Shown here: positions 17,292 to 29,328 of the stretch, in pieces | Layout: every line of letters starts with the position of its first letter | Position numbering within the stretch: position 1 is the first letter of the stretch | Assembly (NCBI GenBank): GCA_028285585.1 | Contig: JANQOU010000006.1 | Span: 248,001 to 312,000 of the forward strand | Reading direction: 5' to 3' | Source of the DNA: Acidimicrobiia bacterium | GTDB taxonomy: Bacteria > Actinomycetota > Acidimicrobiia > Spongiisociales > ZC4RG35 | DNA: 64,000 nt | Translations under genes and position numbers: made by a program | The notes under the pieces: model-generated | Databases searched by the model: none | Told to the model about the DNA's origin: nothing | What the model saw: the letters and a program-made list of their open reading frames with translations, nothing else

Positions 17292-18533
17292 TCAGGCGAC
17301 GGGCAAGGTCCTGACCACGGCGGCAATCGAGTCGTACACCCGCTCACCCATCTGCTTCTCGTCTTCGTCGAGAAGGTTTGCCATCACCTTGAGGGTCCAC
17401 TCCATCAGCGGGCGATTGCGAAGGCCGGTGTGGGCGAGAGTCCGCATCACAGAGGGGTAGCCGATCAGCTTCACGAAGATCCGGGCCATCTTGTAATACA
17501 GCCCGTACTCGTCCTGAAGACGCTGCGGGTAGCGATGGAGGACGCCGTGGTCGCCGGAGCCGAGAGCTTGACCCACGTACTCGGCGGCGATGCGGCCGGT
17601 CTCGTAGGCATAAGAGATGCCCTCGCCGTTCCAAGGGTTGATGGCGCCGGCGGCGTCACCGATCGTGATCCAGTTGGCACCGACGAGCGGGCCCTTGGAG
17701 AAGGACATGGTCAGCTTGCCGCCCATCGGCTTGCTGAGACGGGACTCCTCGCTCAACCCCCAATGATCGGGAGCTCCGTGATCCACATAGTCGTTCATCA
17801 TGTGGGTGGTGTTGACGTGCTTCCAACGCTTGAAGGTCGAGAGGAGGCCCACCCCGACGTTGACCGTCCCGTCACCCAGGGGAAAGACCCAGCCGTAACC
17901 GGGCATCGTCGCCCCTGTCGAGTCCCGCAAGTCGAGCTGGCTTTCGAGGAAGGGGTCTGTCGACATCTCCGACGAGTAGTAACCACGGGCAGCCATACCC
18001 ATCGGGTAGTCGCGGCGCCGCTCGGTCCCCAGCTCACGGCCGAAACGATTCATGGAGCCGTCGGCGATGATGGTGATGTCGGGATTTATTGTCTCTGACC
18101 CATCACCGTTGGCCAGCGCCACGGAGGTGAGGAGGCCCTCCTCGATGACCGGGGCGGCGGTGGTCTTCTCCCTGACCTTGACGCCTTCTTTCTCGGCGAG
18201 ACGGGCCACCTGCTCGTCGAGATCGCTGCGTCTGATCACACCGCCCCAATTGGGGAAACGGCTGTGGTCGGGCCAGGTCATCTCCAGCATCAAGTCGTCA
18301 CCTGCGTATGAGCGAAGCCCGGTGATCTTGTGGAACTCGGGCACATCGAAGTCGAAGCCCATGTCGTCGAGCTGAAGGATCGCCCGTGGGGTCAGGCCGT
18401 CGCCACAGGTCTTCTCGCGGGGGTACTCCTTCTTCTCGATGAGAGTCACATCGTGACCGTCGCGTGCGAGCCAATAGGCGGCGGCCGACCCTGCCGGGCC
18501 ACCTCCCACCACGAGAACGGACTTCGAAGCCAT
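17292..18533 (-). CDS. Geranylgeranyl-reductase-family FAD oxidoreductase
   Basis: 413-residue flavoprotein. The N-terminal FAD-binding loop is VVGGGPAGSAAAYWLA, followed by the family motif REKTCGDGLTP near residue 42 and the second FAD contact TIGDAAGAINPWNGEGI. This family saturates isoprenoid double bonds in lipids, chlorophyll tails or menaquinone (MenJ). Given the surrounding respiratory genes, reduction of the menaquinone side chain is a reasonable inference, not shown. Start at ATG 18533 (MASKSVLVVGGGP). Confidence 0.87.
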   Translation of the reverse strand: MASKSVLVVGGGPAGSAAAYWLARDGHDVTLIEKKEYPREKTCGDGLTPRAILQLDDMGFDFDVPEFHKITGLRSYAGDDLMLEMTWPDHSRFPNWGGVIRRSDLDEQVARLAEKEGVKVREKTTAAPVIEEGLLTSVALANGDGSETINPDITIIADGSMNRFGRELGTERRRDYPMGMAARGYYSSEMSTDPFLESQLDLRDSTGATMPGYGWVFPLGDGTVNVGVGLLSTFKRWKHVNTTHMMNDYVDHGAPDHWGLSEESRLSKPMGGKLTMSFSKGPLVGANWITIGDAAGAINPWNGEGISYAYETGRIAAEYVGQALGSGDHGVLHRYPQRLQDEYGLYYKMARIFVKLIGYPSVMRTLAHTGLRNRPLMEWTLKVMANLLDEDEKQMGERVYDSIAAVVRTLPVA

Positions 18534-18594
18534 GTCATCCAGAGAGTAGAAGGCCGATGTCGGTAGAAGGAACGACGGATGTAACGTCGGCGGC

Positions 18595-19200
18595 ATGTCG
18601 GAGTTGTCCCGAGCCACTGTCTCGCGTCTGCCCCGCTACCTGCGCCTGATCGAAGACTCTGCCGACTCGCGCACCGTCAGCTCCGAGGCTTTGGCGGCAG
18701 CAGCAGGGGTCAACGCGGCCAACGTGCGCAGAGACCTGTCTGACCTCGGGTTCCAGGGCACTCGCGGGGTCGGCTACTCGGCACCTGCCTTGCGCGACCG
18801 CATTCGCCGCGAGTTGGGCATCGAACGCAGGCGCAAGGTGGCCATCATCGGTGCCGGCAATCTGGGAACGGCCCTGGCGAGATACTCGGGCTTGAGCAAG
18901 CGCGGCTTCGACGTCGTCGCTATCTATGACGTGGACGCCGGACGAATCGGCCAGCTGATCGGTGACGTCAAGATCCAAGACTTGGAGGAGATGCCGTCCG
19001 ACTGCTCGTTCGGGTGCTTCGACATGGCCATCCTGGCGGTGCCGGCAAGCTCGGCACAGCCGGTGACGGACGACTTGGTGGCGGCAGGAATCGCCTCCAT
19101 CCTCAACTTCGCCCCGATACGTGTGACCGTGCCCGACACGGTGGCCGTCCGGCAAGTCGACTTGTCGACCGAGCTCCAGATCCTCAGCTACTACGGCTAA
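18595..19200 (+). CDS. rex: Redox-sensing transcriptional repressor Rex
   Basis: 201 residues, normal Rex length. An N-terminal winged helix (residues 1-80; VNAANVRRDLSDLGFQGTRGVGY is the recognition region) is followed by a Rossmann domain with IIGAGNLGTALA for NADH binding. Rex dimers leave DNA when the NADH/NAD+ ratio rises, so they derepress respiratory genes. The Rex-like operator at 10274-10291 in front of nuoE is the obvious target in this window. A -10 TAACGT (18582-18587) ends 7 bases before the ATG, suggesting a leaderless mRNA. The stop is followed within 8 bases by a mobile unit. Confidence 0.96.
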   Translation: MSELSRATVSRLPRYLRLIEDSADSRTVSSEALAAAAGVNAANVRRDLSDLGFQGTRGVGYSAPALRDRIRRELGIERRRKVAIIGAGNLGTALARYSGLSKRGFDVVAIYDVDAGRIGQLIGDVKIQDLEEMPSDCSFGCFDMAILAVPASSAQPVTDDLVAAGIASILNFAPIRVTVPDTVAVRQVDLSTELQILSYYG

Positions 19201-20258: not shown

Positions 20259-20618
20259 TTACGTGGCTTCTTGGGCTTCTTCGTATTGGTGGAGGGCGAC
20301 CAGGAACACCAGGAAGAGGACCGTGCTCACCAACAGGTAGGTGATGGGGATGATCCTTATCTCCAGGGCGTTGAGTCCCTCGATGTTGTCTGGCTTGGGA
20401 CCGCGCGGGGCGTAGATGACGAACAGCAGAGAAGTGATCGCCAGCCAGCCGAAAGTGGCAGCACCGGTGACCAGGAACCCGAGCCGCTTGCCGAGGTTGG
20501 TGTAGTTGAACAGGTAGATGGACCCGTAGAACAGCGCAACCGACACCGCGGTGAGCAGGATCCCGGTTACGAAGAGGTTTGATGAGAGCAGGCCTCTAAA
20601 AAGCTCACGGAAGAACAT
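20259..20618 (-). CDS. Small membrane protein of the bc-complex operon, function unknown
   Basis: 119 residues with three predicted transmembrane helices (around 14-36, 47-68 and 90-110) and an acidic C-terminus (HQYEEAQEAT). No family recognised. It is the last gene of the minus-strand bc operon, starting 3 bases after the diheme cytochrome c stop, so an accessory or assembly subunit is likely. The stop TAA falls in the sequence that flanks the DUF559 unit. Confidence 0.75.
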   Translation of the reverse strand: MFFRELFRGLLSSNLFVTGILLTAVSVALFYGSIYLFNYTNLGKRLGFLVTGAATFGWLAITSLLFVIYAPRGPKPDNIEGLNALEIRIIPITYLLVSTVLFLVFLVALHQYEEAQEAT

Positions 20619-20621
20619 TGG

Positions 20622-22328
20622 CTAGCCGTCTCCCTTCAAGTTGCCGCTGCGCAGGTACGCAGCCAGAAGCTCGATGTCGTCCTGTGACAGGACCGCCCCG
20701 AATCCGGGCATCCGGCCCGACCCGAAACCGTTGAGCCCGTAAGGAGTCTCTTCCTCTGAGCCCTTGATGATGAAGTCGACCAACAGATCCACCTCTGTCT
20801 CCGGATCGGTTGGTGCGTCACCGAACTGGACAACGGGACGGCCATCCCAGAGAGCTGGGCCGAAGCCACCTGAGCCGACCTCGAGGGTGTAGGGGGTACC
20901 GGCGGGAAAGCTTGCCGTGTGGCATCTGGCGCAGCTGGCGTTGAACAGGGCAACGGCCCTCTCCGCTTCTTCGGTCGAGACACCCATGGATGCAGCTACG
21001 CCTTCGATGTCAATCGTCCACGCCCCCGCCTCCTCAGCCATGAGAAGGAACTCATAACCCGCCTGCTCCTGGGGCCTGATCCGGGTCACGTTCTCCACCG
21101 TCACCGCGGTGTTGATCGACGTTGACTCCCAACCGCCGACGAGCGTGTTGGCCGACTCGAGGTCGGTGACACCGGTCACGGACTCGGCGTTGGTCGGATC
21201 GAACGTGACTATGCCGATTGCACTGGGAACGGTGACCGTGGAAGCCTCGGCCATCTGACCGCTGATCTGGGTCTCCGCCTGATCCGAGAGGCCGTCACCG
21301 TCCGTGTCCGGGTTCTCGTCGGTTATCTCATCACCGGCGATGATCGCTTCGATTGCCGTCAGATTGAAAGTGAGAGCTGGGTCCTTCTCGACCGCCGCCG
21401 TGAGCACGGCGACTGCCTCCTCGGCGAGACCGGCGTCCGCGACTTCAGGATCCAAAGCAATTGGGTCGACCTCGCGATAGAACTCGAACGCAGCCACCGA
21501 CATCTCAGAAAGCTGCTGCTCGGCGATGTCGGAGAGACCGTCGGCGTCGGTGTCGATGCCATCGCCGGCGGAGTCGAGAATCGCACGGCCTGAGGCGGCC
21601 AGCGGCCCGATGAAGTCTGCGTCCTCAGGTGCCTGGTCGATGACGGCCAGCACTTGTGCCTGGTCGATGATGGCCCGCTGCACGGTCGTCTCGCCGTTCT
21701 CCAGCCGCGTCAGCTGCTCGTCGAGCTTGCCGGGCAGACGATCCACCGCCTCCTGCTGACTGATCTGAATCGTGGCCAGGTAATTGACGACGTCTTCTAC
21801 CTGAGCGGCATTCATTGGGCCACCACCGTCGAGGCCCCAGCCCGGCATCGGCGTGTTGCCCCGGCCGAACGTGACCCAGAAGTTGACCTCGTCGGGCGTG
21901 TAGCGATAGAGAATGTCATCAAGAGCAGGTGCTGCCCAGGAGACGGCAACTCCAGACCTGGGCTCAACGAAGGCCGCGGAGCCACCGACACCAAGCGGGC
22001 CGTGGCAGTCGAAGCATCCGAATTCCTCGACCAGGTGCTCGCCACGCTCGATCGAAGCGTGTGAGAACTCCTCGACGAACCCTTCTTGACGATTGGTCTC
22101 ACCGAGGAAGTACAACGGCAGCGAGATGGCGAGGAACGCAGATGCGGCGATGGCTACCTTCTGACCGCTCTCCAGGCGCCGAGTCTCCAGGTGCTGGTCG
22201 TCGACCCCGGGACGGAGGTTGGGCGATATCTCCTCGCCACCGCGGTTGCGCAACGCGGAGACCAACATCAGGCCCAGCCAGACGATGCCGGCGACGACCG
22301 CCAAGACAGTGATGATGTCTGTCGTCAT
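20622..22328 (-). CDS. Membrane-anchored diheme cytochrome c of the bc complex, with calcium-loop motifs
   Basis: 568 residues. An N-terminal helix (about 7-26) and a second near 58-75 anchor it; two c-type heme sites follow, CFDCH near 105 and CARCH near 466, each in its own cytochrome c domain. The roughly 300-residue interval contains two calcium-binding-type loops, DTDADGLSD (about 258) and DTDGDGLSD (about 340), as in thrombospondin type 3 repeats. Role: take electrons from Rieske and pass them to an oxidase. In typical actinobacteria QcrC is a smaller diheme protein without such an insert. Coding sequence sits 3 bases after the Rieske gene. Confidence 0.85.
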   Translation of the reverse strand: MTTDIITVLAVVAGIVWLGLMLVSALRNRGGEEISPNLRPGVDDQHLETRRLESGQKVAIAASAFLAISLPLYFLGETNRQEGFVEEFSHASIERGEHLVEEFGCFDCHGPLGVGGSAAFVEPRSGVAVSWAAPALDDILYRYTPDEVNFWVTFGRGNTPMPGWGLDGGGPMNAAQVEDVVNYLATIQISQQEAVDRLPGKLDEQLTRLENGETTVQRAIIDQAQVLAVIDQAPEDADFIGPLAASGRAILDSAGDGIDTDADGLSDIAEQQLSEMSVAAFEFYREVDPIALDPEVADAGLAEEAVAVLTAAVEKDPALTFNLTAIEAIIAGDEITDENPDTDGDGLSDQAETQISGQMAEASTVTVPSAIGIVTFDPTNAESVTGVTDLESANTLVGGWESTSINTAVTVENVTRIRPQEQAGYEFLLMAEEAGAWTIDIEGVAASMGVSTEEAERAVALFNASCARCHTASFPAGTPYTLEVGSGGFGPALWDGRPVVQFGDAPTDPETEVDLLVDFIIKGSEEETPYGLNGFGSGRMPGFGAVLSQDDIELLAAYLRSGNLKGDG

Positions 22329-22331
22329 CCG

Positions 22332-23189
22332 CTATGCCGCTCCGATGCAGCTCGGGCCTTGGGGATAGTTGACCGAGAGGCTCGGAGCCCGGGGCGTCTC
22401 CAAGACGCTGCCGGTCACGATGATGAACCGGCCATTCCTGACCTCGACCTGGAAACGATCGAGGTTTCGAGGCGCAGGCCCGGCGAAGTACTCGCCGAGA
22501 TAGGAATACTTCGAACCGTGGCACGGGCACTCGAAACCCTGGGAAGGCCCACACCAAGGGACTCGACAACCGAGATGGACACACCGCTGGAAGAGAGCCT
22601 GAAGGCCGGCCGCCTGAACACTCCGGCCTTCGAACTGATCGGACTCGTTCGGCGGAGCGGGAACGACATACGCCTTGGCCTCGGGAACGAACAAAGGCAC
22701 CACCGAGCCGTCCGCTGAGATCACCGAGCCCTGGACATCACCGACGGCACCGGCGTCGACATCGGTGCCGAACCCCCCGCTCAGCTTGGGCCAGAAGAAA
22801 GCCAGGTAGTAGACGCCTTGCATCCCGAGGAAAGCGAAGAAGGTGCCGGCGATGGCCCGGTTGAAGAACTGACGCCTGCTGACACCACCCTCTTCGACGG
22901 TGACCTCGACCACACGCTGAGTCTCGACCACGGCGACGGCGGAGCCAACAGGCTCCAACTCCTCCTCGACTACCTCGGGCTCTTCCTCAACCGGCTCCTC
23001 GGTCACGGTCGGGATCGGCTCGACCCGAACACCCTCCATGGAGCGGTCGGCAGAGAGGGTCTCGGCACTCAGCCCGCTGTCGGCCGGCTTGGCTTTCTCA
23101 CTGCGCCTATAGGCGATGGTGAAGGCGCCGATGGCACCGAGGATGGCGAAGATGGCCACGCCGATCAGAACTGCGTCTGTGAAGCTCAT
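22332..23189 (-). CDS. Rieske iron-sulfur protein of the cytochrome bc complex
   Basis: 285 residues. An N-terminal helix (4-26), an acidic Glu/Val/Pro-rich linker (about 50-95), a second anchor (SRRQFFNRAIAGTFFAFLG, twin-arginine-like), then the Rieske domain with both 2Fe-2S motifs CVHLGC (near 203) and CPCHGS (near 220). The cysteines in CVHLGCRVPWCGP could also form the usual disulfide. It oxidises quinol and hands the electron to cytochrome c. The start ATG 23189 overlaps the subunit IV stop by 4 bases. Confidence 0.94.
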   Translation of the reverse strand: MSFTDAVLIGVAIFAILGAIGAFTIAYRRSEKAKPADSGLSAETLSADRSMEGVRVEPIPTVTEEPVEEEPEVVEEELEPVGSAVAVVETQRVVEVTVEEGGVSRRQFFNRAIAGTFFAFLGMQGVYYLAFFWPKLSGGFGTDVDAGAVGDVQGSVISADGSVVPLFVPEAKAYVVPAPPNESDQFEGRSVQAAGLQALFQRCVHLGCRVPWCGPSQGFECPCHGSKYSYLGEYFAGPAPRNLDRFQVEVRNGRFIIVTGSVLETPRAPSLSVNYPQGPSCIGAA

Positions 23190-24142
23190 TCGAAGTGCAC
23201 CCAGTCCTTTAAGTCGTCAAAGAAGATGCCGTCACGCCACGGATACGCCCAGTTGAACCCCTTGCCGCGGAACAGCACCCCGATGATGGTCAGCGTCGCC
23301 GACCCGGCAAGGAAGATGGAGTAGAGGACGATGGCGAACTTGCGGTCACTGGGTCTCGTCGAAGGGTTCTTGTCCACGTACGGGATCATCATGAAACCGG
23401 CCATCCCGACAATGGTGGGGATGGTCACACCTGCGATCTGCGGGTCGAAGTAGCTGAGCAGCTCCTGGAGGCCGAGGAAGTACCAAGGTGCCTTGGACGG
23501 GTTGGGGGTGGCGTTGAAGTTCGCGGGCTCCAACAGCGGCGAGTGGATGACCACGGCCATGATGACCATGAGGCCGGTTATGAGCAACAGGGCTCCGAAC
23601 TCCTGAAGCATCAGGTGGGGCCAGGTGTTGACCTTGTCGGTGGGCTCGGCCTTGACGTTCTGGATGGCGCGGGCTTTGACGACCGTCAGCAGCCTCTGGG
23701 TGCGAACACCTTCCGGGGTCCCGGTCGGAGGCACTACCGGACGGGTGCTGACCAGCCCTGCCACCTTCCCGTTGCCACCACCGTCGCCGTTGCTCTCCGG
23801 CTCTGGTGGAGCGTCCTCGACCACGGTGGCGACGGCTGCCGGGGTCTCCTCCACTTCCGCCGCAGGAGCCTCCTCGACCACTGGCTCAGACGATGGCTCC
23901 GAATCCGCGGCCACCTCAGCCTCGTCAGCAGCGGGCTCGGGCTCAGAGACGGCCTCTTCGACCTCGGCCTCTGGCGCAGCGACCTCTTCAGGCGCAGCCT
24001 CTTCGGCGTCCGCCGGCGGCTCGACGACAACCGGCGGCCCTTCGCCTTTCATCTCGGCCAACACCTGCTCGACCGGCACCCCCAAAGCCTTCGCTTTGGC
24101 CTCTGCCGATCTCCTCAGGAGACTCTCTGGGATCTCAACCAA
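23186..24142 (-). CDS. Cytochrome b subunit IV-like protein with N-terminal docking-like module
   Basis: C-terminal half of a split cytochrome b (petD-like): LMVIMAVVIHSPLLEPANFN, then SKAPWYFLGLQELLSYF, the conserved quinol-oxidation PEWY-like region. 318 residues, much longer than the usual 160, because of residues 1-32 (a helix module also found in the two cytochromes c of the divergent operon) and an acidic Ala/Pro/Glu-rich linker to about residue 130. I start at TTG 24142 since AAGGAG lies 6 bases upstream; the frame continues into the b6 gene but that part is not protein-like. The start is 10 bases after the b6 stop. Confidence 0.9.
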   Translation of the reverse strand: MVEIPESLLRRSAEAKAKALGVPVEQVLAEMKGEGPPVVVEPPADAEEAAPEEVAAPEAEVEEAVSEPEPAADEAEVAADSEPSSEPVVEEAPAAEVEETPAAVATVVEDAPPEPESNGDGGGNGKVAGLVSTRPVVPPTGTPEGVRTQRLLTVVKARAIQNVKAEPTDKVNTWPHLMLQEFGALLLITGLMVIMAVVIHSPLLEPANFNATPNPSKAPWYFLGLQELLSYFDPQIAGVTIPTIVGMAGFMMIPYVDKNPSTRPSDRKFAIVLYSIFLAGSATLTIIGVLFRGKGFNWAYPWRDGIFFDDLKDWVHFE

Positions 24143-24152
24143 TGAATGCTCC

Positions 24153-24929
24153 TTACAGGGGTCCCGAGATTCCGCCGTCCTTGCGGACACGCCAGAAGTG
24201 GACGGCCATGAATATGACGATGATGAAGGGGAACGCCAGCACGTGGAGCACGTAGAACCGGAGCAGCGTCGCCGCTGACACCTCCACACCGGCGAGAAGT
24301 GCGAACTTCACCTGGTTGCCGATGACCGGCACGAACCCGGCCATGTTGGTGCCGACAGTGACGGCCCACAGCGCCAGCTGATCCCAGGGCAGCAAGTAGC
24401 CGGAGAATGAGAGCAACAGGGTTAGCAGCAACAGGATGACGCCGACCACCCAGTTGAACTCGCGCGGCGGCTTGTAAGCACCGTGATAGAAGACACGGCT
24501 CATGTGGAGGAACACTGAGAGAACCATCAGGTGAGCACCCCAGCGGTGGATGTTCCGCACCAGCGATCCAAAAGCCACATCCGTCGACAACCGCTCGATG
24601 TCTGCGTAGGCCAGTTCGGCGGTAGGGGTGTAGTAGAACATCAGGAAGATGCCTGTGATGGTCAGGACGATGAACAGGAAGAAGCTCAACCCGCCGAGAC
24701 AGAGGGTGTAGCTCAGCTTGACGCCGTGCCTCTTCACCTTCACCGGATGGAGGTGATAGAGCACGTTGTTCATCACCACGTAAGAGCGGTTTCTCGGGCT
24801 GTCCGAGTAACCCTGCTTGAAAGGCGAACCGGGCCTGAGTATCGACTCAGCGAGCTGTGAGTTCCACAGCTTCTCGTTGGTCTCCTTGACCCGCTCCATG
24901 AGCCCGACGCGTCCGTTTCCGTTAGCCAT
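24153..24929 (-). CDS. Cytochrome b6-type subunit (N-terminal cytochrome b)
   Basis: 258 residues with four core helices. Heme-ligand histidines are in [21 protein letters not shown] (two) and [23 protein letters not shown] (two), the b6/bc layout. This is the N-terminal half only; the C-terminal half is the separate gene at 23186-24142, a b6f-like split. Most actinobacteria instead have one fused QcrB. The ATG at 24929 overlaps the ferredoxin stop. Confidence 0.95.
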
Positions 24930-25378
24930 TACCAGCGCATCCCATATGAGTATCCATTCTTGAAGTCTCTTTGGCCCGTGTCTAAATCCCAGGGCCGGCG
25001 ATCGAGGCCCAACTCGGCAGCCTGGTCTGCGAGCGAACCCTCGAACTTACCCAAGGTGATGACGTTTGTCGGGCAACGGTCGATGCACAGGGCACACCTG
25101 GTGCACTCGTCTTCGTCGACGATGAAGAAGCCGAGATTTTGCTGATCTTCGGCCGGGTGATCGACGTTGACGGCGTCGGTGATGGCATCGAGAGACAAGT
25201 AGTGGATGCACTTCCACGGGCAGATGTCGACACACCCCTCGCAGAGGATGCACTCGGACTGATCGATGTGAAGGAACTGCTTGGGACGCAGCTTGTCGGT
25301 GAAGTAGTCACCTTCGACCACAGCAAGCTGGTAGTCGTCCCTGATCGGCGGAGTCTCATCGACAACACCTTTGGGCAT
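24929..25378 (-). CDS. Dicluster 4Fe-4S ferredoxin-like protein of the bc operon
   Basis: 149 residues with two 4Fe-4S motifs: [15 protein letters not shown] near residue 43 and [13 protein letters not shown] near residue 92, separated by about 40 residues. Soluble, no signal peptide, so it should work on the cytoplasmic face of the bc complex. A ferredoxin in a bc operon is unusual and suggests that low-potential electrons enter or leave the b hemes, but this is inference. The ATG overlaps the upstream stop (TGATG), and the stop overlaps the b6 start. Confidence 0.9.
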
Positions 25379-26058
25379 CAGTCACCCCTCACGAGCGGAC
25401 GACCGTAGGGGGACTTCGGCTGAGCGGGCTCGGCTCCGGCAGGGCGGCCGTCTTTGATCTTCTGCAACTGGATGGCCAGAAGGGGCGCCAACCCGAGCAT
25501 CACTATGTGATAGCCCATCGAGATCGAGTCTTTGATCACGGCGTAGCTGATCTCAACGTCGTTTCCCAGCAAGAGAAACGGCGGGATCACAAAAAAGGTG
25601 TCGTTGCCCCACTCGAGGTCTGTCTGCGCGAAGTTCAGCCACTCCGACGGCACCATCCCGAAGAAGAAGACCAAGGCCACCCAGGCGATCATCGCCGCGG
25701 TTGTCGCTCGTGCCCAGGTCATCTTCTGATTCAGGACCCACAGCATCGATGCCCCGATGAGAGCGAAGGTGGTGGCGCCACCGATGAACAGGTAGGCGGA
25801 GCCTTTCCACCAGGTTCCGCGCGGCCACCAGTTGAGATAGTCGACTGTGTAGGCGACTTCTACGCCACCCACCATCTCCGTTTGTGGGAGCGACGACCAA
25901 TGCAGCCAGATCACGCCGATGACGAGGCCGACCAGCCCACCGACGAGCAGTGAGGAGCCAATCAGCTTTCGCCTTGCGTCGCTCAGTTCTCCAAGCCGAT
26001 ACATCTCTACAAAGTTCTTCCGGGCGCGTCGAGGTAGCTGTTGGTGAGTTTCTACCAC
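25378..26058 (-). CDS. Membrane protein of the bc operon, function unknown
   Basis: About 226 residues from GTG 26058, which has AAGGA 10 bases upstream; a TTG at 26079 would add seven. Predicted helices near 34-54, 84-105, 115-140 and 175-195 (rough). Contains aromatic-rich stretches such as YLNWWPRGTWWKG. No known family recognised. It heads the bc operon and overlaps the ferredoxin gene by one base, so it probably belongs to the complex. Confidence 0.75.
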   Translation of the reverse strand: MVETHQQLPRRARKNFVEMYRLGELSDARRKLIGSSLLVGGLVGLVIGVIWLHWSSLPQTEMVGGVEVAYTVDYLNWWPRGTWWKGSAYLFIGGATTFALIGASMLWVLNQKMTWARATTAAMIAWVALVFFFGMVPSEWLNFAQTDLEWGNDTFFVIPPFLLLGNDVEISYAVIKDSISMGYHIVMLGLAPLLAIQLQKIKDGRPAGAEPAQPKSPYGRPLVRGD

Positions 26059-26174
26059 AAGCGGGGGTTCCTTCGACAAACCACCAACCGACGATTTCCT
26101 TGATAGAGGCCGCGGCGGGATGGACCCTGGAACTCGTTATGCTCCCGCCGTCTCCGTATTGACGAGGAAGCCCG

Positions 26175-27611
26175 TTGGCGCAGACCCAAACAGCACAGAC
26201 TCGAGCCCTTCTCGGAGGCGGCACCGGTGAGGACCGTGTCGCTGCCACACATTTCATGGTTGGTGCTGCTTTTCTCGTGTTGGGCGGGGCTTTGGCCCTT
26301 CTCTCCCTCATGTCGCTTCGCTTCGCCGACTTGATCCCGGTCAGCTACGGGCGTCTCGAGCCGATGGCGAACCTGACGCTCATGTTCGGGTTCGGAGTGG
26401 TGACATTGGTCGGTGGCATCTACTACGTCTTGCCACGCTTGACCGGGACCAGGTTGTGGAGCACCGATCTCGCAGGCTCCGGTTTGCTCGGCATCTCCGG
26501 GTTGGTCGTCGTCGGCTTGCTCCTGATCGGGTTTGGATTCGGCACCGGCCGCCAGCCTCTTGGGCTGCCGTGGTGGTTCCACGTCCCGATGATGCTGCTG
26601 CTGACCCTGCCGATGATCATCACCATCGGGACGATCGCCAACCGGGAGGAGCCGCGCAGCTTCGTCACCCTCTGGTTCGTGCTGGGCGGGGTGACCTGGC
26701 TCCCCCTGCTCTACCTCGCGTATCTCGCCGGTGACCTGCCCGGCTTGAGCAGCATCGCCGTCGAGTACTCCAACGTCTTCCTATCGGCCGGGTATGTGAC
26801 GATGTTCCTGCTCACCGTGGGATCCGGGCTCTTCTATTACACGTTGGTCAAGGAGCTCGACCTCTCCCTGGCCAGCAGACAGCTCGCCATGATCGGCTTC
26901 TGGTCTCTGGGCTTCGCCGCTGCATGGTGGGGCGCGGCTCAACTCATCTTCGGGCCGGCGCCGTCCTGGGTGTCCGGTGTCGCAGCAGCGCTCGGCCTCG
27001 CCTTCCCGATCGGAGCACTTGCCAACGCGGCCAACGCTTCATTGACACTCGAGGGCTCTTGGGGAGAGATCGGCGATCAACCCGCCGTGGGTGCGGGGAT
27101 GGCCGGCCTCTACCTCGCCGTGGCGGTGGGCCTGGCAGCGGCTCTGGCCGGCTTCCGCTCTGTGGCGGCGGTCACCTCGCTGACCTCCTTCTGGGAAGGC
27201 ATCGAATACTCGGCGATCGCCGGCCCCGGAGCACTGCTCGCCGCAGGCGTCAGCTTCGCTGCGCTCCCGCGGCTGGTGGGCCGGCAGCTGGCTTCGGTCC
27301 AGCGCGCCCGCTCCTTCATCCGGCTCACGGTCGTCGGATCCGTCGGGACTCTGATCTTCCTCGCCGCGGCCGGGATCCTGTCCGGGTATTCGTGGACCGG
27401 CGGATCCAACGCGGCGGCTTACATCGACGCAGCTGAGGGATGGGGTGCCGGGCTCGACAACACTTTCGACACGTTGCTGCTGATCGCCATTGGCTTCGGG
27501 TTCGTGACCTTCGCAGGCCAACTCGCATACGCCGCCACCATCTTCGGCACGGTCACCAGTGGCAAAGCAGCGACCCAAGAGGTGCTGGTGACGATCGAGG
27601 GTGAGGAATGA
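26175..27611 (+). CDS. CcoN-like heme-copper oxidase homologue lacking all heme and copper histidines
   Basis: 478 residues, twelve or so helices, aligning with cbb3 oxidase subunit I along much of its length: YGRLEPMANLTLMFGFG corresponds to the FGRLRPxH segment, FYYTLVKELDLSLASRQLAM to the helix VII loop, and ASLTLEGSW to the TLSGAW segment. Every metal ligand position is changed: the low-spin heme His is Ala65, the first copper His falls near Ala205, the HH pair is Ala255-Gln256, and the GHVH segment has no histidine. Only His26 and His136 occur in the whole protein. It cannot bind hemes in the canonical way. TTG start at 26175 with a GAGGAAG site. First gene of a three-gene operon. Confidence 0.88.
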   Translation: MAQTQTAQTRALLGGGTGEDRVAATHFMVGAAFLVLGGALALLSLMSLRFADLIPVSYGRLEPMANLTLMFGFGVVTLVGGIYYVLPRLTGTRLWSTDLAGSGLLGISGLVVVGLLLIGFGFGTGRQPLGLPWWFHVPMMLLLTLPMIITIGTIANREEPRSFVTLWFVLGGVTWLPLLYLAYLAGDLPGLSSIAVEYSNVFLSAGYVTMFLLTVGSGLFYYTLVKELDLSLASRQLAMIGFWSLGFAAAWWGAAQLIFGPAPSWVSGVAAALGLAFPIGALANAANASLTLEGSWGEIGDQPAVGAGMAGLYLAVAVGLAAALAGFRSVAAVTSLTSFWEGIEYSAIAGPGALLAAGVSFAALPRLVGRQLASVQRARSFIRLTVVGSVGTLIFLAAAGILSGYSWTGGSNAAAYIDAAEGWGAGLDNTFDTLLLIAIGFGFVTFAGQLAYAATIFGTVTSGKAATQEVLVTIEGEE

Positions 27612-28351
27612 GCCTGGAAGCCGCAGCCGCGGCCCTCGGCATTCCGGAAAGCCTGGTTCAGCGCTCAGCCGAAGCGCGGTCCGCCGAGACCGGAGCGAGC
27701 GTCGACGACATCATCGCCGGCTGGGCCGGTGACGCCCCCCCGCCTGTCGTTGCCACCACTGCGCCCGACCCGGCCACAGAAGCAGTTGAAGCCGAAACCG
27801 CTGTCGAGGAGACCACCCCCGAGGTCACAATCGAAGTCCCGGACACCGCGCCGGCAGAGCCGGTCGCGATAGCTGCCGAGCCCTACAAGCCTCCGATCCT
27901 GGTCGGAGCCAAAGACAACCCGATGATGATCCTCGCCGGGGTCATCGGCCTCTTCTTGATCGTGATGCTCGTCGGCCTGGTCGGTCCTTCAATCGCCTTC
28001 GAGGAACCGGGCACACGCAGCAGCGAGATCCCCTATTCGCAATCAGCTGTCGACGGGCAGCATGTCTACGGGTCGCTGGGCTGTGCAGCCTGTCACACGC
28101 AAGTGGTGCGGCCGGTGGTCGCAGATGTTGGGCTGGGTGCGGTGACTCTCAACGACACCAACCAGACGATCGGGACGAGGCGCTTCGGCCCCGATCTCTC
28201 CAACGTCGGTGCTCGGGTCTCCGGGACCCAAATGCAGGCCATAGTGGAAGGTCGTCTCGGCAACCATCCATCTCACAGTCTTTCCGAATCCGACATGAGT
28301 GACCTCGTCGCATACCTGTCACAGTCGGTGACCGCGGAGGCAAGCGGATGA
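27608..28351 (+). CDS. CcoO-like membrane-anchored monoheme cytochrome c
   Basis: 247 residues. Residues 10-41 are a helix module (GIPESLVQRSAEARSAE...) shared with two other proteins here, followed by an Ala/Glu/Pro-rich linker, one transmembrane helix (about 103-125) and a cytochrome c domain with CAACHTQVVRP. The continuation RRFGPDLSNVG resembles CcoO of cbb3 oxidases. Heme would face outside. It overlaps the CcoN-like gene by 4 bases, so the pair mimics ccoNO, but with a dead CcoN. Stop overlaps the next gene. Confidence 0.9.
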   Translation: MSLEAAAAALGIPESLVQRSAEARSAETGASVDDIIAGWAGDAPPPVVATTAPDPATEAVEAETAVEETTPEVTIEVPDTAPAEPVAIAAEPYKPPILVGAKDNPMMILAGVIGLFLIVMLVGLVGPSIAFEEPGTRSSEIPYSQSAVDGQHVYGSLGCAACHTQVVRPVVADVGLGAVTLNDTNQTIGTRRFGPDLSNVGARVSGTQMQAIVEGRLGNHPSHSLSESDMSDLVAYLSQSVTAEASG

Positions 28352-29328
28352 GCCTCGCAGGAGCGAGCGCGGCCCTTGGGATCCCCGAGTCGCTGGTCCA
28401 GAGGTCGGCCGAAGCGCGTGCCGCCGAAACCGGCCAGCCCGTGGACGAGATCATCGCCGCCTGGGCAGGAGGCGAGGTTGTAGCCACCCCGGCACCTGCC
28501 GTGGCTGAAGAGACGGCCCCCGAGCCGGAGGCGGCAGCGCCCGCACAAGACCCAGAACCGGAGCCGGTCGCCGCAGCTGTCGAGGCCGTCGAGCCGGTGG
28601 CCACCGGAGTCACCACCCGGGCGCCGGTGCCGGAGCAGGTGACGCCGGGAGAGGCTTCTCATCTGCCTGAGGTGATCACGGTGCCGACGGCGGGGATCAA
28701 GGAGAAGACCAACTTCGTGATCCCTCGCTGGCTCACCGCGGTGATGCTGACCATCCCACTATTCGCCCTGTTTGCCCTGGGTGGGGCCTCCACCGGCGTC
28801 TGCGGAGAGGCCACGGAGCTCCAGACCGACGTCGTGACCGGGCAGATCGTCAACTGTGACGGCTCCGAGTTCACTGGGTCGGAGATCGGCGGAGGCGGAA
28901 CCGATTACATCGCATTGGGCAGCGACATCTACGCAGGTGTGGCCGTGACCGGTGTCAACTGCGCCGGCTGCCACGGTGCCAACGGCCAGGGTGTTGGAAC
29001 CTTCCCTGCTCTTACCGGGGTGCTGACAACGTTTGGTGCCTGTGCCGATCACGACTCCTGGGTGTCACTCGGCTCGAGCGGCTGGCCGGAGGCGACCTAT
29101 GGCGATACCGCCAAACCAGTCAACCTAGGGATGCCCGGATTCGGGGGAACCCTCACCGACGAACAGATCGCGGCGGTGTCGGCCTTCGAGCGGGTCCGCT
29201 TCGGGGGACAGGACCTCGAGGCTGCCCTGGTCGACTGTGGCCTGGCCGAGCCTGAAGGCGAGCCGGCTGAAGACACCGAGAGTGGCAGCGAAAAGCCTAC
29301 TGAGGCCGTCGCCGGCGCCACCGGCTAG
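28348..29328 (+). CDS. Membrane-anchored monoheme cytochrome c
   Basis: 326 residues. The same N-terminal module at 10-41 (GIPESLVQRSAEARAAE...), a long acidic Ala/Pro-rich linker to about 100, one transmembrane helix near 129-150, then a cytochrome c domain with CAGCHGANGQG near residue 208 and the distal methionine probably in LGMPGFGG. It is CcoP-like in place but has only one heme. Acidic C-terminal tail. Last gene of the operon; the terminator is at 29725-29753. Confidence 0.88.
   Translation: MSLAGASAALGIPESLVQRSAEARAAETGQPVDEIIAAWAGGEVVATPAPAVAEETAPEPEAAAPAQDPEPEPVAAAVEAVEPVATGVTTRAPVPEQVTPGEASHLPEVITVPTAGIKEKTNFVIPRWLTAVMLTIPLFALFALGGASTGVCGEATELQTDVVTGQIVNCDGSEFTGSEIGGGGTDYIALGSDIYAGVAVTGVNCAGCHGANGQGVGTFPALTGVLTTFGACADHDSWVSLGSSGWPEATYGDTAKPVNLGMPGFGGTLTDEQIAAVSAFERVRFGGQDLEAALVDCGLAEPEGEPAEDTESGSEKPTEAVAGATG

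Follow-up and report, generated by a model that had tools for sequence, protein, structure and literature searches.

What becomes of a haem-copper oxidase subunit I that has lost every residue by which its haems and copper are held, and what role could keep it next to the genes of complex III? This question is raised by a gene, here called CcoN*, which lies in a 64,000-nucleotide stretch of DNA (the window; positions 248,001 to 312,000 of contig JANQOU010000006.1) from an Acidimicrobiia bacterium. The gene, its partners and the operon that faces it are listed in Table 1.

Table 1. Features of the CcoN* locus, in window coordinates
Feature	Position	Strand	Remarks
Presumed geranylgeranyl-reductase/FixC-like flavoprotein (name assumed)	17292..18617	-	frequent neighbour
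Presumed Rex-like redox regulator (name assumed)	18595..19200	+	frequent neighbour
Small membrane protein at end of complex III operon	20259..20618	-	no family over cut-off; conserved in neighbours
Di-haem cytochrome c of complex III	20622..22328	-	Pfam Cytochrome_CBB3 3.1e-14, two stretches; two CxxCH
Rieske iron-sulfur protein	22332..23189	-	Pfam Rieske 1.9e-6; PetC-like 69 bits
Cytochrome b C-terminal / subunit IV-like, N-terminal motif	23186..24142	-	Pfam Cytochrom_B_C 1.2e-6; TTG start, AAGGAG upstream
Cytochrome b6-like subunit	24153..24929	-	Pfam Cytochrome_B 1.6e-49; two His pairs, spacing 14 and 15
Soluble 2x[4Fe-4S] ferredoxin-like protein	24929..25378	-	Pfam Fer4 3.6e-12, two stretches
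M233, hydrophobic membrane protein without known family, first gene of complex III operon	25378..26079	-	no Pfam family over cut-off
CcoN*, ligandless haem-copper oxidase subunit I, 12-helix family	26175..27611	+	478 aa
FixO/CcoO-like membrane-anchored mono-haem cytochrome c, N-terminal motif	27608..28351	+	Pfam FixO 2.2e-9 (over cut-off), Cytochrom_C 3.3e-6; one CxxCH
Second membrane-anchored mono-haem cytochrome c, weakly CcoP-like, N-terminal motif	28348..29328	+	Pfam Cytochrom_C 2.9e-11

Homology of CcoN* and its metal-ligand sites

A preliminary description of the locus had aligned the protein with CcoN of the cbb3 oxidases over its core, and this homology was borne out at several levels. 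Pfam COX1 matched CcoN* across 389 residues (E 1.9e-21; 76.9 bits, cut-off 34.8), and five solved cbb3 CcoN chains matched it with E-values of 8e-19 to 2e-13. The TIGR00780 ccoN model matched as well (E 6.9e-27), with a score of 94.5 bits that lies far below its equivalog cut-off of 583. Profile-profile comparison (hhalign) of 45 relatives with ten C-type-like oxidases gave a probability of 100 and an E-value of 5e-69 over 411 columns, but only 5e-14 when the same profile was compared with four A/B-type rows. Since the profile E-value is far better against the C-type than against the A/B-type, CcoN* is by sequence a relative of the C-type (cbb3) oxidases. Note that one relative, cut at a contig end (L094), was excluded both from this profile and from the tree described below. 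The CcoN* frame opens with TTG, a few bases downstream of GAGGAAG, and the closest named relative, from an Acidimicrobiia MAG (L031), has an ATG start at the same residue. AlphaFold, run on CcoN* with two sequences only (those of the window and of L031), gave a pLDDT of 36.

The ligand columns were read in the numbering of the 3mk7 chain (H60, H207, H257, H258, H345 and H347). In CcoN* these six columns hold A, A, A, Q, I and Y, so that the histidines of the low-spin haem, the high-spin haem and CuB are all absent, as had been claimed; Ala65 and the Ala255-Gln256 pair were found at the positions first given for them. The protein has just two histidines among its 478 residues, H26 and H136, and no cysteine. 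When 64 distinct relatives were aligned jointly with 14 ligand-bearing oxidases, histidine occupied 4 of the 383 ligand cells of the relatives and 84 of the 84 ligand cells of the controls. Two of the 14 controls, one A-type (L032) and one B-type (L033), belong to the window's own genome; L102, a B-type oxidase cluster rejected as a member of the CcoN* family, also served as a control. Two A-type rows had missed the H207 column in earlier alignments, and all 14 controls are covered in the joint one. The four exceptions all lie in the H257 column and in one family (L047, L048, L055 and L058), whose other five columns are non-His. Elsewhere the replacements vary by lineage (Ala, Arg, Thr, Lys, Ser, Gln or Tyr), with mostly small residues in the H60 and H207 columns.

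A homology artefact or a misalignment was rejected as the cause of this pattern, the controls retaining every histidine in the same alignment. A His-poor composition was rejected too: low histidine content fails to explain the loss because non-ligand histidines of 3mk7 are kept in many relatives, H364 in 21 of 45 and H384 in 14 of 46. Histidines supplied from other positions, which would have contradicted the preliminary description, were not found either: a search of 40 representatives for a conserved substitute ligand gave none, the best columns reaching 54% for His (at a non-ligand site), 28% for Met, 8% for Cys and 75% for Asp/Glu. What is conserved in CcoN* is the skeleton that it has in common with catalytic CcoN, namely Gly, Pro, Trp, Thr and a few Arg/Lys. 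The cross-link tyrosine of cbb3 oxidases (Y251 in 3mk7) is replaced by Ala, and the E125 site is likewise not kept. Judged by these features, CcoN* is a homologue of the haem-copper oxidase superfamily but is not a member of the haem-copper oxidase enzymes.

A maximum-likelihood tree of 59 rows contained a branch, with support of 100/98, that splits the 45 ligandless proteins from the 14 ligand-bearing ones. This points to a single loss of the ligands, which is likely but not proven because many rows of the tree differ in composition and its root is unknown. The preliminary description had also held that the gene is under selection, and in four pairs its dN/dS was 0.09, 0.10, 0.12 and 0.23, indicating purifying selection. 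Cytochrome b gave 0.01-0.06 in the same four pairs; thus CcoN* evolves faster. No internal stop codon was found in any of the 65 CcoN* places in the class.

Using the family profile (E <= 1e-10), CcoN* was detected in 62 of the 148 genomes of the class, and in 40 of 110 when only good genomes were counted; many of the carriers have genomes of about 1 Mb. Across the phylum the profile matched in 14 of 296 genomes, ten of them outside the class. Among the out-of-class matches, five keep all ligands (L106, L108, L109, L111 and L112) and five are without the full set (L103, L104, L105, L107 and L110).

Partners of CcoN* and the facing complex III operon

As proposed earlier, CcoN* is accompanied by a CcoO-like and by another cytochrome c, which proved to be fixed partners, the FixO/CcoO-like protein directly downstream and the second cytochrome c after it. 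The latter scored 26.5 bits with the ccoP model (cut-off 180) and has one CxxCH, so it is not a di-haem CcoP. In families f2, f3 and f13, and in part of f8, a single frame of about 620-700 residues or more encodes CcoN* joined to CcoO and contains one CxxCH.

The genes on the other side of CcoN* include together those of a bc/b6f-type complex III, that is cytochrome b, subunit IV, a Rieske protein and cytochrome c, and from this content the divergent operon is best described as a predicted expanded complex III. Its cytochrome b6-like subunit scored 301.5 bits with the NCBIfam model ExtP, over the cut-off of 290. A similarity of M233 to DUF6789 was weak (E 0.083) and was dropped; a haloarchaeal COX1 with a DUF6789 gene next to it is an ordinary ligand-bearing oxidase. 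The 2x[4Fe-4S] protein encoded inside the operon is a possible electron partner of cytochrome b on its cytoplasmic side; in one locus (L093) no ferredoxin frame was found in the operon.

In 37 of the 39 loci compared, M233 and cytochrome b are neighbours of CcoN*, the other two being a locus that ends at the contig edge (L094) and the B-type cluster (L102). At 60 of the 65 CcoN* places in the class M233 is within 1.5 kb, and at two more it is 3.3 and 4.1 kb away; the remaining three have no M233 on the contig and are all at contig ends. The two genes are divergent at all 62 places where they share one contig. The association with a bc operon suggested in the preliminary description is thus fixed in other genomes, with the amendment that the bc genes lie on the opposite strand and the arrangement is therefore a divergent pair of operons, not one operon.

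The reverse does not hold. M233 relatives were detected by profile in 125 of the 148 genomes of the class, and in two genomes (G073 and G066) M233 is strong and CcoN* was not found. We compared ten loci with M233 and without CcoN*. The cytochrome b of the complex III operon was present in 10/10, one of these loci (L136) ending at the contig edge, and no COX1-like frame of the C-type or ligandless kind and no CcoO were found in them. Since the complex III operon occurs without both, CcoN* and CcoO would have been gained by or lost from a common core; and since it persists without CcoN*, a scaffold made of this protein would be dispensable in evolution. The second cytochrome c was seen at the divergent position in seven of the ten loci (L129-L134 and L137) and not in L135, L136 and L138; it is a more constant partner than CcoN* and CcoO. 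The new electron-transfer complex of the preliminary description is hereby narrowed to an expanded complex III with a dead cbb3-like module, other families having the complex III without that module.

Link to the aa3 oxidase genes and the proposed role of CcoN*

Besides CcoN*, each of the 45 carrier genomes checked has at least one COX1 match that scores far higher; the ligands were read in the matches of the window's own genome. A direct junction was seen in one genome only (G012), where a single strand of the locus L080 carries CcoN*, COX2/cytochrome c, COX1, COX3, CtaG, a FixO-like protein and a cytochrome c.

A second possible link is a motif of about 32 residues, for example GIPESLVQRSAEARAAETGQPVDEIIAAWAGG, which is found at the N terminus of subunit IV, of the CcoO-like protein and of the second cytochrome c, and is also written IPESLVQRSAEARAAE..VDEIIAAWAGG. 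A search of the whole genome found it in four places, the fourth being a 386-aa membrane protein without a Pfam family (L119:914-2074). In 13 of 14 genomes compared, ctaD has a homologue of this protein at a distance of 1.5-4.9 kb; in the other one (G070) the two are on different contigs. The motif recurs across loci, with up to several copies per protein, and in shorter forms where CcoN* is absent. It should be on the cytoplasmic side, being the N terminus before the first helix while the haem domain is outside, and we infer that it is a docking element. It may also be a general interaction element, not specific to an assembly of CcoN* with complex III.

We propose, with a probability of roughly 0.6, that CcoN* is a non-catalytic membrane scaffold that holds cytochromes c between complex III and the aa3 oxidase. 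This reading takes from the sequences the homology, the ligand loss, the single clade, the selection, the neighbourhood, the other COX1 gene and the shared motif; from these we infer the physical assembly, the path of the electrons and the scaffold role. CcoN* would have descended from a C-type haem-copper oxidase and would bind neither haem b nor copper in the known way, its 12-helix body having been retained as a scaffold in the membrane. It would anchor the FixO/CcoO-like cytochrome c, sometimes by fusion, and the second cytochrome c beside the divergently encoded complex III. Electrons would run from menaquinol through cytochrome b/Rieske to the di-haem cytochrome c, then to the tethered mono-haem cytochromes c, and from these would enter the real aa3 oxidase at its CuA/cytochrome c subunit. 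The outcome would be a III-IV supercomplex that works without soluble cytochrome c. Counted against this are the complex III loci free of the module, the linkage to aa3 genes in one genome, the four relatives with a His at H257 and a motif that is possibly unspecific.

A bolder form of the same reading is held more tentatively, at somewhat less than even odds. It describes an ancient pseudo-oxidase whose cofactors were all lost in one event and which has since served as a constant structural subunit next to complex III, both in much of this actinobacterial class and in further classes of its phylum. There it would build an obligate III-IV supercomplex, with a repeated docking motif that holds the assembly together from the cytoplasmic side.

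CcoN* could instead be a factor for assembly or haem handling that helps to insert or mature the CcoO-like cytochrome c, or else complex III/IV, and stays outside the final electron path. In keeping with this, genes for cytochrome c maturation are found in distant lineages between CcoN* and the complex III operon: CcmF in L103, and in L080 ResB together with a thioredoxin-like protein and a cytochrome c assembly protein. The L080 operon also has CtaG. However, maturation genes are common beside cytochrome c operons, and the covalent CcoN*-CcoO fusion in four families better fits a structural subunit, so that we regard this role as unlikely.

A little less likely again is a quinone-binding or proton/ion-translocating subunit that would act by conformational coupling. 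A 12-helix membrane protein adjoining a quinol-oxidising complex would suit such a function, and Lys/Arg at positions 88 and 226 of the window protein are kept in 100% and 90% of the 40 representatives. These basic residues look structural, however, because catalytic CcoN has them too; the acidic and His columns all stay short of 80%, and the window protein retains neither the cross-link Tyr nor the E125 site. Of the structural or quinone-binding scaffold first suggested, the structural half therefore appears best supported by the sequences, whereas quinone binding is left without support, acidic columns staying at or below 75% and His columns at or below 54% of the 40 representatives.

Binding of haem through other ligands (Arg, Lys, Tyr or Gln) is very improbable. 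Some lineages have R or K in the H257/H258 columns, and nothing favours such binding directly; the replacements differ from lineage to lineage, and those at H60 and H207 are mostly small residues. We give equally little credence to a relic on its way to loss and retained by chance, which would agree with the many families of the class that are without CcoN* and with its faster evolution relative to cytochrome b, but not with the dN/dS of 0.09-0.23, the 65 places free of internal stops and the retention in genomes of about 1 Mb.

Known systems and wider meaning

In the actinobacterial bcc-aa3 supercomplex of mycobacteria (III2-IV2), electrons pass from complex III to aa3 through a tethered cytochrome c. 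The CcoN* system would, judging by gene order and the shared motif, work in a like manner. It would differ in that the tether is made up of distinct membrane-bound cytochromes c carried by a dead oxidase scaffold, and in that cytochrome b is split and b6-like and is accompanied by an extra ferredoxin-like protein and by M233. The window cytochrome b also resembles the ExtP/ExtQ b6-like cytochromes (NCBIfam NF040969 and NF040970), passing the ExtP cut-off; the ExtQ cut-off, in contrast, was not reached (54.7 against 150), and a Rieske protein is present here.

CcoN/FixN of the cbb3 oxidases (PDB 3mk7 and 9g6b) is similar by profile over nearly the whole protein and likewise has a FixO/CcoO-like protein and another cytochrome c downstream. 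CcoN*, however, is without the six ligands and the cross-link Tyr, scores under the ccoN cut-off, has no CcoQ that we noticed and is tied to a complex III operon. One article describes a cbb3-like oxidase of Nitrospina with an unusual subunit I fused to its cytochrome c partners, in which most haem and copper sites are kept (PMC3578206). The fusion is alike, whereas CcoN* keeps no haem or copper site. No description of a ligandless subunit I was found in the open-access literature that was searched.

Subunit I of the haem-copper oxidases is defined by its metal sites. If our reading is true, a clade that has given up all of these sites and yet retains the body, the partners and the selection would be a clear respiratory pseudoenzyme, and an example of a terminal oxidase taken over as a scaffold for complex III. 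There is a practical side as well. CcoN* scores over the Pfam COX1 cut-off, so that annotation pipelines may label it a cbb3 oxidase, and such miscalls would credit these uncultured bacteria with a high-affinity oxygen respiration that CcoN* cannot perform. For Acidimicrobiia MAGs, another article reports oxidases of the cbb3 type (PMC8357290).

Two further arrangements were observed. On another contig of the window's genome (contig 8; L118, 4516-13963), a second bc-type complex is encoded with a pyridine-nucleotide oxidoreductase fused to [4Fe-4S] domains, and it adjoins a B-type oxidase and a 720-aa fusion of cytochrome b, ferredoxin and cytochrome c. In four loci from other classes (L106, L108, L109 and L111), a ligand-bearing C-type-like subunit I is followed by a protein of 640-673 residues with five CxxCH.
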